This document shows, piece by piece, positions 4,621-34,508 of a stretch of DNA of 64,000 nucleotides. The stretch is from Mesotoga sp. Brook.08.105.5.1 (lineage in GTDB: Bacteria; Thermotogota; Thermotogae; Petrotogales; Kosmotogaceae), in contig NZ_AYTW01000061.1 in the NCBI RefSeq assembly GCF_002752635.1, forward strand, positions 27,652 through 91,651, in the 5' to 3' direction. Made by a program: the position numbers and the translations under genes. Numbering within the stretch: the first letter of the stretch is position 1; each line of letters opens with the position of its first letter. The notes beneath the pieces were generated by a model. The model saw only the letters and a program-made list of their open reading frames with translations, was not told the origin of the DNA and did not search any database.

Positions 4621-5200
4621 ATGCTTTCCGGAGAATAGCAAACAGTCAAAGGGTAACATGTTCGTTTTGCCATTGCATATTCACATAGCTGAACCGAAGC
4701 CGGGCGCCCGCCCGGCTACTTCAATTATCTATCATTGGGACAAACGTCTTCAGTTCAGAACGATCTCTTCTTGGTAAAGAAATTCGACAACAGTTTATGA
4801 AATGTATATCTGACATCGTTGGGATTTATTCCGTAAGTCGTAGGCAGGTTTTGGTTCTGCTGATGAATTCTCATGTGAACTGAGGCGAACTATGCCCGTC
4901 TGCTTAAACAACTTTCGATACTAAGAGAAAGTAGATCAACTGGCCCGGCTACAGATATTAACTTGCGAATATCTCGCAATAAGAAAGTGCTTTGTGCTTG
5001 TTGCAATCAATGGAACTTAGTGAATATTCAAGGTTTCTCGCGAAGAGAAAACCAGTTGCAGAGGAAATGTTGAAGTCCAACTAACCAATTATTCTACATC
5101 CAGAGATCAACTCAAGAGGATTACTTAAACCATCCCGAAAGCTCATGGAAATCATTTGATATCGCGAGCAATGCCTTATTAATTGACCCAAGATGGTTGT
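4621..5200. other. Intergenic stretch without a recognisable gene
   Basis: No frame here reads as a convincing protein on either strand. A strong hairpin sits at about 4697-4717; the rest is AT-richer than its surroundings with scattered stops. It could be eroded coding DNA, but no family is recognisable. Confidence 0.6.
4697..4717 (+). terminator. GC-rich hairpin after the TPR gene
   Basis: AGCCGGGCG pairs perfectly with CGCCCGGCT across a 2-3 base loop, followed by ACTTCAATTAT. The stem is strong but the U-tract is weak. It is best read as the terminator of the TPR gene. Confidence 0.5.
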
Positions 5201-5267
5201 AACGAGTAATAATCGTTACGGATCGTTCTTACAATAATACAACTTATAAGTTATAAATAGAGGTAAG
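5201..5267 (+). promoter_or_regulatory. Operator/promoter region of the toxin-antitoxin-chaperone operon
   Basis: Two palindromes precede the first gene: AACGA-N7-TCGTT at 5201-5217 and the perfect 12-mer AACTTATAAGTT at 5241-5252, which overlaps AT-rich -10-like sequence. Toxin-antitoxin operons with an HTH antitoxin are normally autorepressed through such palindromes, so these are operator candidates. GAGGTAAG directly precedes the start codon of the toxin gene. Confidence 0.55.
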
Positions 5268-5693
5268 ATGGAGAGAAAGATCGATGTCTTATCCGACGAA
5301 AGAATGCAGAGGGAATTTGACAAGTACGTAGGAAAGAATCCCTCCAGAAAGAAGGATCTGATAAAGAATAGGTTTTTGCTCACCGAGCTGCTGGAGAAGG
5401 CGGGGGAGAATTATGTGAAAACGGAACTTGCAAAACCGCGAAGATCTTCCCGCCTGGAGGTTTTCAGACGTACGGAGACCAGTTATTCAATATACTCTCT
5501 TCATCTTACAGAGACGAAGAGGAATGATCCAGAAAACGCAAGGATTCTTTTCTGCTTCTTCAATGATAAGAAGGTTATCGTTTATCTTGTCTTCTTTGAT
5601 GAGTCCGATGAAAAGTATGAGAAGGCGATCGAGAGACTGAAGTCGCGGATTTGTGAATGGACCGGTCGGGGATTCAATGTATGCAAGTTTTAG
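5268..5693 (+). CDS. RelE/HigB-like toxin, first gene of a TAC operon
   Basis: The 141-residue basic protein has a C-terminal half, ARILFCFFNDKKVIVYLVFF followed by DESDEKYEKAIERLKSR, which matches the beta-sheet plus terminal helix of RelE/HigB/Gp49-type ribosome-dependent mRNA interferases. The N-terminal 60 residues are helical and unassigned. The gene order toxin, then HTH antitoxin 16 bp later, then a SecB-like gene is that of toxin-antitoxin-chaperone operons such as M. tuberculosis HigB1-HigA1-Rv1957. The toxin call rests jointly on the fold pattern and this context. Likely action: cleavage of mRNA on the ribosome when the antitoxin is degraded. Confidence 0.65.
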   Translation: MERKIDVLSDERMQREFDKYVGKNPSRKKDLIKNRFLLTELLEKAGENYVKTELAKPRRSSRLEVFRRTETSYSIYSLHLTETKRNDPENARILFCFFNDKKVIVYLVFFDESDEKYEKAIERLKSRICEWTGRGFNVCKF

Positions 5694-5708
5694 GAGGTGT
5701 AGTTTTTT

Positions 5709-6140
5709 ATGTTTTCATGGGGTGAAGGCGATAGAAAGAGAAGAATGAATACTGAAAATCCAGAGCCTGTGTTCAAGAGAGACAGCGAACTGTTGTTAGA
5801 GTCGGCAGACGATGACACGAGATTTGAGTTGAACTTGATTGGAGTCATGACGGATATTTCTGCAGCTCTCATTAACTATCGGGCGGATAAATCCCTTTCA
5901 CAAAAGGAGCTGGCAGAAAAACTAGAGTGCAGCCAGGCAATGATCTCGAAGATCGAAAGTGGCGACTATAACTTTACAATAAGAAAGCTTTTTGACGTTG
6001 TCAACAAACTCGGAGGTCGTGTATCTCTTGAGATTGACTTCAAAGATGATACTTCGATTCCAGATTCTTCTGAAGAGCGAGTCTCAATATGGGAGTACGT
6101 TGGCAATCAAAGCATCAAAGGGATGAAGAATAGTGCCTGA
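5709..6140 (+). CDS. HTH (XRE) antitoxin, HigA-like
   Basis: The 143-residue protein has an XRE helix-turn-helix at about residues 55-110 (INYRADKSLSQKELAEKL, ECSQAMISKIESGDYNFT, IRKLFDVVNKLGGRVSLEIDF). It starts at ATG 5709, nine bases after AGGAGGTG. After the HTH there is a short tail, SSEERVSIWEYVGNQSIKGM, with exposed aromatic residues. In HigA1 of the tuberculosis TAC system a C-terminal chaperone-addiction segment after the HTH makes the antitoxin depend on its SecB-like partner; this tail is in the same place. It should neutralise the upstream toxin and repress the operon through the palindromes at 5201-5252. Confidence 0.8.
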   Translation: MFSWGEGDRKRRMNTENPEPVFKRDSELLLESADDDTRFELNLIGVMTDISAALINYRADKSLSQKELAEKLECSQAMISKIESGDYNFTIRKLFDVVNKLGGRVSLEIDFKDDTSIPDSSEERVSIWEYVGNQSIKGMKNSA

Positions 6141-6585
6141 GCCAGTGAATGCCGAGTTCCGTTTCTTGGCGCACAGAATTTCTGATTTTTCGTTTACTCT
6201 CCAGGAGGGGGTCAAAAACATGTCAATTTCGCTGGACCTGCATGATCCAGAGCTTGAATATGGGCGTGCCGATAACGGTTGCCTCCTCGGCTTGTTGTCT
6301 CTCTCAGTCAAAGTCAGGGGTCGAAGCGGAAGAAAGATGGCTTTGAAGCTCGATGCAACAATCAAGGGTAGGTTTGAAGCTCCCGAGAATATGGAAGACA
6401 AAACATTCGAAGACTTTTGCATGATTAGCGGGACCGCAACTCTGATCCCTCTTCTTAGGGCCGCTATTATCTCTTTCACTTCGCAGGCTGGAATGAATCC
6501 CCCTATAAGAATACCTTTGATCAATGTGCCTCAGTCACTCTCAAAAAACACCTTGTCAGAGAAAAAAGAAAAGAATAGGGAATAA
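6133..6585 (+). CDS. SecB-like chaperone of a toxin-antitoxin-chaperone (TAC) system
   Basis: This 150-residue protein starts at GTG 6133 and overlaps the antitoxin stop by 8 bases. It shows the SecB layout: beta strands (VNAEFRFLAHRISDFSFTL, LLSLSVKVRGRSGRKMALKL), a central segment ending in GTATLIPLLRAAIISFTSQA, and a terminal G-x-NPPIRIPLINV. The last part matches the conserved SecB end (helix, then G-x-PP-x-x-x-PP-x-N). Housekeeping SecB is not typical of Thermotogota, and coupling to an HTH antitoxin makes a dedicated TAC chaperone the best reading: it would fold and protect the antitoxin from proteases. Standalone SecB is the alternative. Confidence 0.7.
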   Translation: MPEPVNAEFRFLAHRISDFSFTLQEGVKNMSISLDLHDPELEYGRADNGCLLGLLSLSVKVRGRSGRKMALKLDATIKGRFEAPENMEDKTFEDFCMISGTATLIPLLRAAIISFTSQAGMNPPIRIPLINVPQSLSKNTLSEKKEKNRE

Positions 6586-7060
6586 TCTGATCAGTATTCT
6601 TCTGTGGTCATATCAGCTAGCTCGCCTTCATCGAACATCTAGATTGATCATATGATATAGCCAGAGGATATTTGTATTGAAGAAAGCAGCTGCTAGCGCG
6701 AGGCTTCCCGGAGAAAACCGCTCGAAATCAGCGTGGAATCCTATGATAATTACTGCTGATTAGGGACTCGTCTACTTGAGACCGTCTTTCGCCAGAATAT
6801 GGCGACACTGAAAATCAAACCCCGCTGTACAGGGCAGCCGCCAGTAGAGGCCCTTCTTTCAGAAGGATTTCATTTTTCTCATGAGACAATAAACAGAACC
6901 CACAAAAGAACACTCCAAATCGAGTGTGGGGCCATTGAGATACTTAACGAATCAAGCACGTGGTGATTTGAAAATGCGGTGGTACGTCCTCCCTTCTTTT
7001 CCATTTAACACTTCTTCAGCGTCTTTCAGAATTTGTGCTGTCAAACTCGATTGTATTCAT
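6586..7060. other. Intergenic stretch, no gene recognised
   Basis: The text is AT-rich and has no good ribosome site or family signal. A short inverted repeat (ACACTCC-AAATCG-GAGTGT-like) lies near 6908-6925. It separates the TAC operon from the repeat field. Confidence 0.5.
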
Positions 7061-7116: not shown

Positions 7117-7392
7117 TTAGAGCTGTGCTGCTTTTCCAAATCCTCTGCCGAGTCCCGGTCCCTTTTCGCCAGAGGCGCCGTGCCTGTAGCCTGTTCCGTC
7201 CTGGGCATTCTTCAGTTCTCTTACTCCGTCATTCGGGCAGTTGTCATTTATTCCGTCGCCGTCTGCATCCACAAAGTTCTCACAGGTTGTGGGATCCTGA
7301 ACTCTCTGCATCGCTTTCGTTCCGTAACCTACTGCCAATGACATTCCACCGATCAGAAGAACTGCAATCGTAATTAACATTATCTTTTTCAT
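7117..7392 (-). CDS. Secreted 91-residue peptide with DADGDGIND calcium-loop motif, copy 1
   Basis: The product has a signal peptide (MKKIMLITIAVLLIGGMSLAVG, with likely cleavage near residue 20-25). A short mature part follows with CENFVDADGDGINDNCPN at about residues 37-54 and a Gly-rich tail (GEKGPGLGRGFGKAAQL). The D-x-D-x-D-G-I-x-D pattern flanked by two cysteines resembles a calcium-binding EF-hand or thrombospondin type-3 loop. GGAGGTGTAAG precedes the ATG. Copies 2 and 3 at 8569 and 11163 are nearly identical. The protein is clearly expressed by design (promoter region, SD and terminator are all conserved), but its role is unknown; an exported calcium-binding or envelope peptide is plausible. 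Confidence 0.8.
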   Translation of the reverse strand: MKKIMLITIAVLLIGGMSLAVGYGTKAMQRVQDPTTCENFVDADGDGINDNCPNDGVRELKNAQDGTGYRHGASGEKGPGLGRGFGKAAQL

Positions 7393-8568: not shown

Positions 8569-8844
8569 TTAGAGCTGTGCTGCTTTTCCGAATCCTCTGC
8601 CGAGTCCCGGTCCCTTTTCGCCAGAGGCGCCGTGCCTGTAGCCTGTTCCGTCCTGGGCGTTCTTCAGTTCTCTTACTCCGCCATTCGGGCAGTTGTCATT
8701 TATTCCGTCGCCGTCTGCATCCACAAAGTTCTCACAGGTTGTGGGATCCTGAACTCTCTGCATCGCTTTCGTTCCGTAACCTACTGCCAATGTCATTCCA
8801 CCGATCAGAAGAACTGCAATCGTAATTAACATTATCTTTTTCAT
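8569..8844 (-). CDS. Secreted 91-residue peptide with DADGDGIND motif, copy 2
   Basis: The product differs from copy 1 at two residues (SLAVG to TLAVG; CPNDGV to CPNGGV). Signal peptide, paired cysteines, D-x-D-x-D-G loop and Gly-rich tail are intact. The ribosome site GGAGGTG and upstream leader are also kept. The near absence of change in coding sequence, leader and terminator indicates either recent duplication or gene conversion. Function unknown. Confidence 0.8.
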   Translation of the reverse strand: MKKIMLITIAVLLIGGMTLAVGYGTKAMQRVQDPTTCENFVDADGDGINDNCPNGGVRELKNAQDGTGYRHGASGEKGPGLGRGFGKAAQL

Positions 8845-10559: not shown

Positions 10560-11115
10560 ACTGTTCCTCCACGATTAACATTGTTCTAGGCCAATTATAG
10601 CATTGGCGGACTTAAGTCCCGCTTCGCGGGGGAAGAGCCGCTGAAGGCTGTGCGCTGATGAAAACCACGTTTCTTCGATACTAACAGTCGGGAAAGAACA
10701 TTATCGAGAGCGTCGCTTCGAGGAAAAAAGAGAATTCAATAACAAGCGTGTTATCGCGTGCAATGCACAGACTGCCACATTTGAGATACATGTTATCGAT
10801 ACGGGGTCGAGCTCGGAACTTGTTTCAGAACAAACACTTCCCACCGCAAGCGGGGATTCAAGATCAAGAGCAAAAGAGAGGTTCATCGTTCCGACGCTTC
10901 GCGTCCAGGTCCTTGTTGAAGGTGGCAAAAGACGTAAGAGACCAGAGGGAAGAGGTAGAAGAGCAAGTAGATCTTGCCTTTCTAACCTCTAACCTCATTC
11001 ATGTCATCTCTACAGCGTTTAGTTTCGCAATCAGATTCGAAATGACAGCCCAAGCCAGAAACGTAGACCGACGGATTCCTGACGTCTATTGTCTTCGATT
11101 TTGTTATCATAAGAA

Positions 11116-11137
11116 CAAGGGCCCTTTCGGGCCCTTG
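11116..11137 (-). terminator. Terminator of secreted peptide gene, copy 3
   Basis: Third copy of the CAAGGGCCC/GGGCCCTTG hairpin, followed on the minus strand by TTCTTATG. Confidence 0.85.
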
Positions 11138-11162
11138 ATAGATTGGGTAGGGGTTTTATCTT

Positions 11163-11438
11163 TTAGAGCTGTGCTGCTTTTCCGAATCCTCTGCCGAGTC
11201 CCGGTCCCTTTTCGCCAGAGGCGCCGTGCCTGTAGCCTGTTCCGTCCTGGGCATTCTTCAGTTCTCTTACTCCGTCATTCGGGCAGTTGTCATTTATTCC
11301 GTCGCCGTCTGCATCCACAAAGTTCTCACAGGTTGTGGGATCCTGAACTCTCTGCATCGCTTTCGTTCCGTAACCTACTGCCAATGTCATTCCACCGATC
11401 AGAAGAACCGCTATCGTAATCAACACTATCTTTTTCAT
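11163..11438 (-). CDS. Secreted 91-residue peptide with DADGDGIND motif, copy 3
   Basis: The product equals copy 1 except MKKIV for MKKIM and TLAVG for SLAVG. The signal peptide, CENFVDADGDGINDNCPN and Gly-rich tail are unchanged. The leader is slightly more diverged (ATATGATTTTTGG; TTAACAAACGC). A third intact copy within 4.3 kb argues for dosage selection or ongoing conversion. Function unknown. Confidence 0.8.
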   Translation of the reverse strand: MKKIVLITIAVLLIGGMTLAVGYGTKAMQRVQDPTTCENFVDADGDGINDNCPNDGVRELKNAQDGTGYRHGASGEKGPGLGRGFGKAAQL

Positions 11439-11932
11439 CTCTTACACCTCCATATGATTTTTGGTATATTCTCAGTCTACGGCCCGTTTCTTAGAGCCCG
11501 CTTAACAAACGCTTAGAGATTGCTTAGAGATTTGAAGAGCCGTGGCTGCGGGTAGAGCAGATTGGGGGTGGAAAGAGCCAAAGATCAGTGGCAAGAAAAA
11601 AGTGAGAGGCGAGGCCGACTTTGTCGGGAAGTGATGCTGCTTCGCACGAAGCCTCTCAGGTCAACCGTCAACGGTCCACCGTTCTCCGAGGAAAACTCGT
11701 TCTTCGTTCCAGAGCGAGGACCTGTTATTCGTGAAGAACGGTTCTTCGTTCCGACGCTACGCGTCCAGGTTCTAGGTTCTTCGTCTAGGATTCCGTCATT
11801 CTCGTGTATTGTCACAAGAGAGAAAGCAGAGAGTATAGAATGAGGGTAGAAGGAGTAGCCAGTCGTCATTCCAAAATGATTCAGAATCCTGCTCCTAAAA
11901 AACGCAGTACGCTTAGGAGCAAGGACCCGCTG

Positions 11933-33890: not shown

Positions 33891-34508
33891 TCATTCTTCT
33901 GCTTTTTCTTTCGTCTTTTGTTCGATTACCTTGTCTATCATCCCATACTCGACAGCTTCGGCAGAACTCATGAAGAAGTCTCTGTCGGCATCTTTCTCTA
34001 TCTTCTTTATTGATTGTCCAGTGTGTTTGGCAAGGATTTTATTCAGTTCGTCCCTCAGGTAAAGAATCTCCTTCGCCCGGATTTCGATGTCTTTGGCTAC
34101 TCCCTCTGCACCACCGAAAGGCTGGTGAATCATTACCCTTGAGTTAGGTAGCGCAAATCTCTTTCCCTTTGTTCCTCCGGCAAGCAATATCGCGCCCATC
34201 GAGGCTGCCATCCCAATGCAAATCGTAGAGATGTCGGGCTTTACATACTGCATTGTGTCGTATATCGCCAATCCGGAAGTTATCGAACCACCCGGGGTGT
34301 TTATGTATAGACTTATGTCCTTTTCGGGGTCTTGAGATTCAAGGAAGAGGAGTTGAGCCACGACTATATTTGAAACTTCATCATCGATGGGCCACCCGAG
34401 AAAGACTATTCTTTCTGAAAGCAGTTTAGTGTAAATATCAAAGATTCTTTCACCCCTCCCTCTGTCTTCAACTACGTAAGGGACGAAAGGTGCCATGTTT
34501 ATGTCCAT
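33891..34508 (-). CDS. clpP: ATP-dependent Clp protease proteolytic subunit
   Basis: The 205-residue serine protease forms a double heptamer fed by Clp ATPases. The catalytic Ser is in [12 protein letters not shown] (about residue 100), the His in [12 protein letters not shown] (about 125) and the Asp in [18 protein letters not shown] (about 175). The start [16 protein letters not shown] is typical. It follows the RemA-like gene by 8 bases. The protease that degrades the TAC antitoxin could be this one, but that is inference. Confidence 0.96.

Follow-up and report, generated by a model that had tools for sequence, protein, structure and literature searches.

The window, by which we mean the whole 64,000-nucleotide stretch of DNA analysed here, belongs to a Kosmotogaceae (Thermotogota) genome and carries three genes of a probable toxin-antitoxin-chaperone (TAC) operon at 5268–6585, all on the plus strand. 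The features of the locus, in the order in which they occur, are as follows.

5199–5219, no strand: inverted repeat GTAACGA-7-TCGTTAC, putative operator; such a repeat arises in 11% of dinucleotide shuffles of the region
5241–5252, no strand: putative operator, a perfect palindrome of 12 bp (AACTTATAAGTT); such a repeat arises in 15% of shuffles
5268–5693, plus strand: putative toxin gene, 141 aa, Gp49/HigB-like (RelE superfamily)
5692–5697: AGGAGG, ribosome site of the antitoxin gene
5709–6140, plus strand: antitoxin gene, 143 aa, XRE/HTH_3
6039–6137, plus strand: C-terminal tail of the antitoxin (residues 111–143), candidate chaperone-addiction region
6133–6585, plus strand: SecB-like chaperone gene, 150 aa, GTG start

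The toxin and antitoxin genes are separated by a gap of 15 nt, and the first 8 nt of the SecB-like gene are also the last 8 nt of the antitoxin gene. An earlier interpretation made from the DNA letters (the sequence-only reading) had described three genes that overlap or nearly touch, and the open reading frames indeed lie at or inside the positions where it had placed them. Comparison with the orthologous operons of G025 and G029, two genomes of the same genus, gave dN/dS values of 0.07–0.09 for the toxin (codons 39–141), 0.33–0.37 for the antitoxin and 0.12–0.15 for the SecB-like protein. Purifying selection acts on all three genes, and as they are conserved as coding sequence in both genomes (dN/dS 0.07–0.37) the three reading frames are not due to chance. 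Scans for relatives of the region among genome and viral contigs returned one Kosmotogaceae contig and nothing viral, and the plasmids gave none.

The two repeats upstream of the toxin gene had been proposed as palindromic operators. The repeats are real, but they are only marginally above chance, since both are found together in 5% of the shuffles of the region, and we therefore rejected them as strong evidence. In both sister genomes one arm of the 21-nt inverted repeat differs by a base, and the 12-bp palindrome is unchanged in G025 and G029. The 68-nt stretch holding both repeats has one change per sister genome, compared to a synonymous divergence of 0.15–0.23. A promoter scan in front of the toxin found no site. 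Autoregulation of the operon is plausible.

The product of the first gene had been read as a RelE/HigB-like toxin, and this can be upheld through its relatives. The window toxin itself aligns in register with Gp49, but the match (E = 0.052, 14 bits) is below the cut-off of 23.9. It is related to the toxin of the locus L104 (6e-15), and the TAC toxin of L059, with which it was aligned (alignment A5), matches Gp49 at 9.7e-11 (42 bits). From these relatives the window toxin is probably of the Gp49/HigB kind within the RelE superfamily, and we describe it only as Gp49-like. PADLOC gave no match for the toxin, and its structure predicted from the single sequence (pLDDT 40) was uninformative. The catalytic residues of the M. 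tuberculosis HigB-TAC are E66, R68, N73, R77, and K95 (PMC9098466), and the L059 toxin retains an E-x-R-x4-N-x3-R motif with the spacing of the first four. In the alignment, R92 of the window toxin corresponds to R77 of HigB-TAC, S77 and H79 stand where L059 carries E and R, and E112 stands at what is probably the K95 position, where all five aligned relatives, L059 included, have Lys. The reaction of the window toxin is uncertain because these usual active-site residues are replaced, despite the strongest selection of the three genes.

Three replaced active-site residues would also fit a module in decay, whose toxin has lost or is losing its activity while the antitoxin and chaperone survive as a regulator. 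Frameshifts interrupt the toxin gene of both G025 and G029, with two different sites affected, where the antitoxin and chaperone are intact; the gene is broken in G090–G092 and G038 as well. Such frameshifts are the pattern that a burdensome toxin would show, but they may also be sequencing errors in the assemblies. Against decay, the toxin gene of the window is unbroken and its dN/dS is the lowest in the operon, and we regard this explanation as unlikely.

For the third gene product, which had been called SecB-like, the Pfam SecB profile gave 17.3 bits against a cut-off of 26, so that sequence alone leaves its identity unsettled. The structure is clearer. An AlphaFold model (pLDDT 78, pTM 0.69), built from a thin alignment of two rows (the window protein and one related contig), has a half rich in strands, after which comes a long helix. 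When this model was compared with the PDB by Foldseek, every one of the best 19 matches was a SecB (TM-score about 0.6–0.7, E from 3.6e-7 to 1.8e-5), among them SecB of E. coli and H. influenzae and the M. tuberculosis SecB-TA 5mtw, which contains the ChAD peptide. A structural comparison of 6133–6585 with SecB was one of the checks named in the sequence-only reading, and by this comparison the protein has the SecB fold. The CmdC profile PD-T4-9_C of PADLOC also matches it (E = 6.8e-6), as it does 10 of the 12 aligned proteins. The PDB was also searched by sequence, using the SecB-like protein, the SecB profile and the toxin profile, and gave nothing usable.

A SecB fold would equally be expected if the third gene were an ordinary export SecB serving SecA, placed behind the toxin-antitoxin pair incidentally, and the E-values for E. 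coli SecB and SecB-TA are similar. The weak Pfam score of the window protein and the distribution of its relatives do not fit this. Of 103 Thermotogota genomes searched with our SecB-like profile, 25 hold full-length genes (29 in total) and four more hold fragments, so most genomes of the phylum are without the gene. All 29 full-length genes are third in line behind a toxin and an antitoxin, a count that includes operons with a broken toxin frame (one each in G025, G029, G090, G092, and G038). SecB is said to be missing from most thermophiles (PMC7023208), and outside the alpha-, beta- and gamma-proteobacteria it is mostly linked to toxin-antitoxin systems (44 of 70; PMC4257090). The SecA of the window genome (822 residues) has no C-terminal zinc motif and no Cys within its last 60 residues, and no SEC-C motif was found anywhere in the genome by a search that was positive in both E. 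coli and T. maritima. Because this SecA is without the zinc tail on which SecB docks, an export role for the window chaperone through the usual docking is unlikely; the ordinary export SecB is a very improbable explanation of the gene. The Pfam SecB profile adds one solitary gene, above its cut-off, in G018 (L173:2188–2631, minus strand); no other SecB-like gene found in the phylum stands apart from a toxin-antitoxin pair.

The antitoxin has an HTH_3 domain at residues 56–102 (E = 7.3e-10), in agreement with the XRE antitoxin proposed before. The aromatic tail proposed to follow the HTH is present too: 33 residues follow residue 110 and end in ...ERVSIWEYVGNQSIKGMKNSA, with the aromatic core SIWEYVGNQSIKG at residues 126–138 (window 6084–6122) and ERVSIWEYVGNQSIKG as the candidate chaperone-binding peptide. 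Between species (window compared to G025/G029) the last 21 residues of the tail have one change and the 12-residue linker before them three to four.

Tails of this kind follow the presence of the chaperone. Every XRE antitoxin with an intact SecB gene behind it carries a long tail and the SecB-less relatives do not; homologs that keep the chaperone and are without the tail, which would have spoken against the sequence-only reading, were not seen. We compared five TAC antitoxins with short HTH-only bodies to SecB-less antitoxins of the phylum, namely those of the pairs L104, L105, and L106 and those of L107, L108, L110, L116, L117, L120, and L121. The tail was 32–40 residues long in the former and 0–26 in the latter (Mann-Whitney p = 0.0013), the last 40 residues were richer in aromatics in TAC antitoxins than in SecB-less ones (p = 2e-4), and 12 of 17 TAC antitoxins but 1 of 18 SecB-less ones had Ala among their three final residues when one representative was taken per antitoxin group (p = 8e-5), all three p-values being indicative only because the representatives were picked by eye. 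In these counts of tails and C-termini, the antitoxins of L049 and L054 were assigned by hand. The trend is the same for XRE antitoxins whose C-terminal body is longer (71–94 residues with SecB, 45–51 in the L109 counterparts). A broken SecB gene goes with a shortened antitoxin tail in G091 (L060), where there is a net loss of 29 nt around the tail, and in G010 (L071), where a run of N adjoins the broken gene. We infer from these comparisons that the tail is the chaperone-binding segment. A plain two-gene pair of the HigBA type, in which the tail and the third protein would have no part in neutralisation, is the least likely of the explanations considered: relatives of the toxin and antitoxin do exist as SecB-less two-gene pairs (L104, L105, and L106), but it is exactly their antitoxins that are without the tail, while the SecB gene, itself under purifying selection, begins inside the antitoxin gene, and similar tails are found on other SecB-linked antitoxin groups.

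The enrichment of Ala at the ends of TAC antitoxins would be as expected for ClpXP tags; the NSA end of the window antitoxin resembles such a tag (e.g., LAA) only weakly. ClpP-dependent proteolysis removes the antitoxins of the M. tuberculosis TAC and of CmdTAC. A ClpP gene is present in the same window (33918–34457, minus strand).

Taken together we consider it highly probable that the operon is a complete type II TAC module. The sequence-only reading had claimed as much for this Thermotogota genome, and the gene order, the SecB fold and the tail agree with it; the dependence on the chaperone is the part that we infer. In the mechanism known from other TACs (PMC5105189, PMC6377645, PMC11618068), the Gp49/HigB-type toxin of the RelE superfamily would probably cut ribosome-bound mRNA, and the XRE antitoxin would repress the operon and mask the toxin. 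Because of its C-terminal tail, the antitoxin would depend on the SecB-like chaperone, the product of the next gene. As long as the chaperone holds the tail, the antitoxin would fold and persist. If the chaperone were drawn off by another client, the antitoxin would aggregate or be degraded and the toxin would be set free, with stress or phage as the presumed trigger.

The TACs of the Thermotogota comprise at least three types of operon. The first has a Gp49-like toxin and an XRE antitoxin. The second has a ParE-like toxin (PF15781) and an antitoxin of the MerR/HTH_17 type and is seen at L044, L045, L051, L052, L056, and L062–L068; no description of such a ParE-like (PF15781)/MerR-type TAC was found in the literature searched. 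The third is found in G038 (L054:2700–4311) with interrupted ADP-ribosyltransferase-like frames (CYHGTSKENAEKI), an antitoxin of 94 residues ending in GRAA, and SecB. It is possibly a relative of CmdTAC, its toxin being assigned by eye. The SecB tree places the chaperones that go with XRE antitoxins in G039 and G040 inside a clade of MerR-type chaperones, and its strongly supported branches imply at least two changes of antitoxin type. One chaperone lineage has thus switched antitoxin family at least twice. An operon with a ParE-like toxin, an HTH antitoxin and a SecB-like protein is also carried by the Marinitoga phage MCV1 (KP836355, UF08_53 to UF08_51; L073:3007–4441), where all the genes are annotated as ‘hypothetical proteins’. 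The same proteins are found in the genome G043.

A second, intact TAC (TAC2) is present in G025 (L042:2652–3882) and G029 (L043:5280–6510), at most 2.5 kb from the ortholog of the window operon (TAC1), upstream of it in one genome and downstream in the other. The window genome is without TAC2, and the site of the G025 TAC2 is an empty stretch of 60 nt near 4888–4948. About 350 nt downstream of TAC1 (window 6631–6975) recur downstream of TAC2, and this repeat is a likely substrate for the gain and loss of TACs. At L048 (G011) two TAC operons face each other about 2 kb apart, with a serine recombinase gene after one of them; a recombinase is also found after the TAC of G055 (L056). Beside the window TAC there is in addition a repeated unit (7117–7392, 8569–8844, and about 11095–11542) encoding a small signal-peptide protein (MKKIMLITIAVLLIGGM...), the first two copies being about 1.45 kb apart. 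This unit also adjoins the orthologous operons.

As a broader and rather doubtful idea, the SecB fold in Thermotogota might exist almost only as a movable subunit for addiction and sensing, separated from export because SecA has no docking tail. The chaperone and tail would then have been fitted as a pair to several antitoxin groups with exchange of partners, the client would be something other than Sec preproteins (e.g., a phage capsid protein, as for CmdTAC), and the active site of the window toxin might be of another type, based on histidine.

Systems of this kind are already known. TAC had been described as best known from M. tuberculosis, which needs widening, as TACs are known outside this species too (PMC4257090, PMC11618068). 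No description of TAC in Thermotogota was found in the literature searched, and the survey of Sala et al. (2013) may list some. The M. tuberculosis TAC (HigB1-HigA1-SecB-TA, Rv1955–Rv1957) has the same order of toxin, tailed XRE antitoxin and SecB-like protein as the window, its toxin is also of the Gp49 type (PMC9098466), and its SecB-TA (5mtw) is one of the structures that the window chaperone matches best in fold. Both tails have a Trp core, EVPTWHRLSSYRG in M. tuberculosis and ERVSIWEYVGNQS in the window. Within EVPTWHRLSSYRG, W108, R110, and Y114 contact the chaperone (PMC6377645); the Trp is common to both tails, but the spacing of Arg and Tyr is not. TAC tails are otherwise unlike one another, as reported earlier (PMC5105189). 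The two systems also differ in the active-site residues of the toxin, in the chaperones, whose identity over the fold alignment is only about 12%, and in the SecA of the window host, which has no zinc tail.

The anti-phage system CmdTAC (PD-T4-9) likewise has a SecB-like third subunit, whose profile the window chaperone matches, and a capsid protein acts as its trigger (PMC11618068). CmdT is an mRNA ADP-ribosyltransferase, whereas the window toxin is Gp49-like, and CmdA, which ends in LAA (PMC11618068), is described as two helices and a disordered tail, unlike the XRE antitoxin of the window. Having found a Gp49-like toxin, without a PADLOC match, in place of an ADP-ribosyltransferase, we rejected the assignment of the window operon to CmdTAC.

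The closest comparisons are found within the phylum, which carries many versions of the system, natural chaperone-free relatives included. How toxin-antitoxin systems became addicted to SecB is a named open question (PMC4257090), and the Thermotogota offer matched sets of related toxin-antitoxin pairs with and without chaperone and tail, as well as chaperone lineages that have switched antitoxin family. Because the SecA of the window genome has no docking tail, SecB can here be studied where a use in export is unlikely. TAC2 of G025/G029, from the same genus, has a toxin, an XRE antitoxin and a SecB-like gene as seen in the window, but its SecB is 35–38% identical and its antitoxin ends in FCWKPSEAA. 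The two-gene Gp49/HigB-XRE pairs of L104, L105, and L106 have a homologous toxin and antitoxin but neither SecB gene nor tail, and such chaperone-free relatives show what dependence on the chaperone adds.
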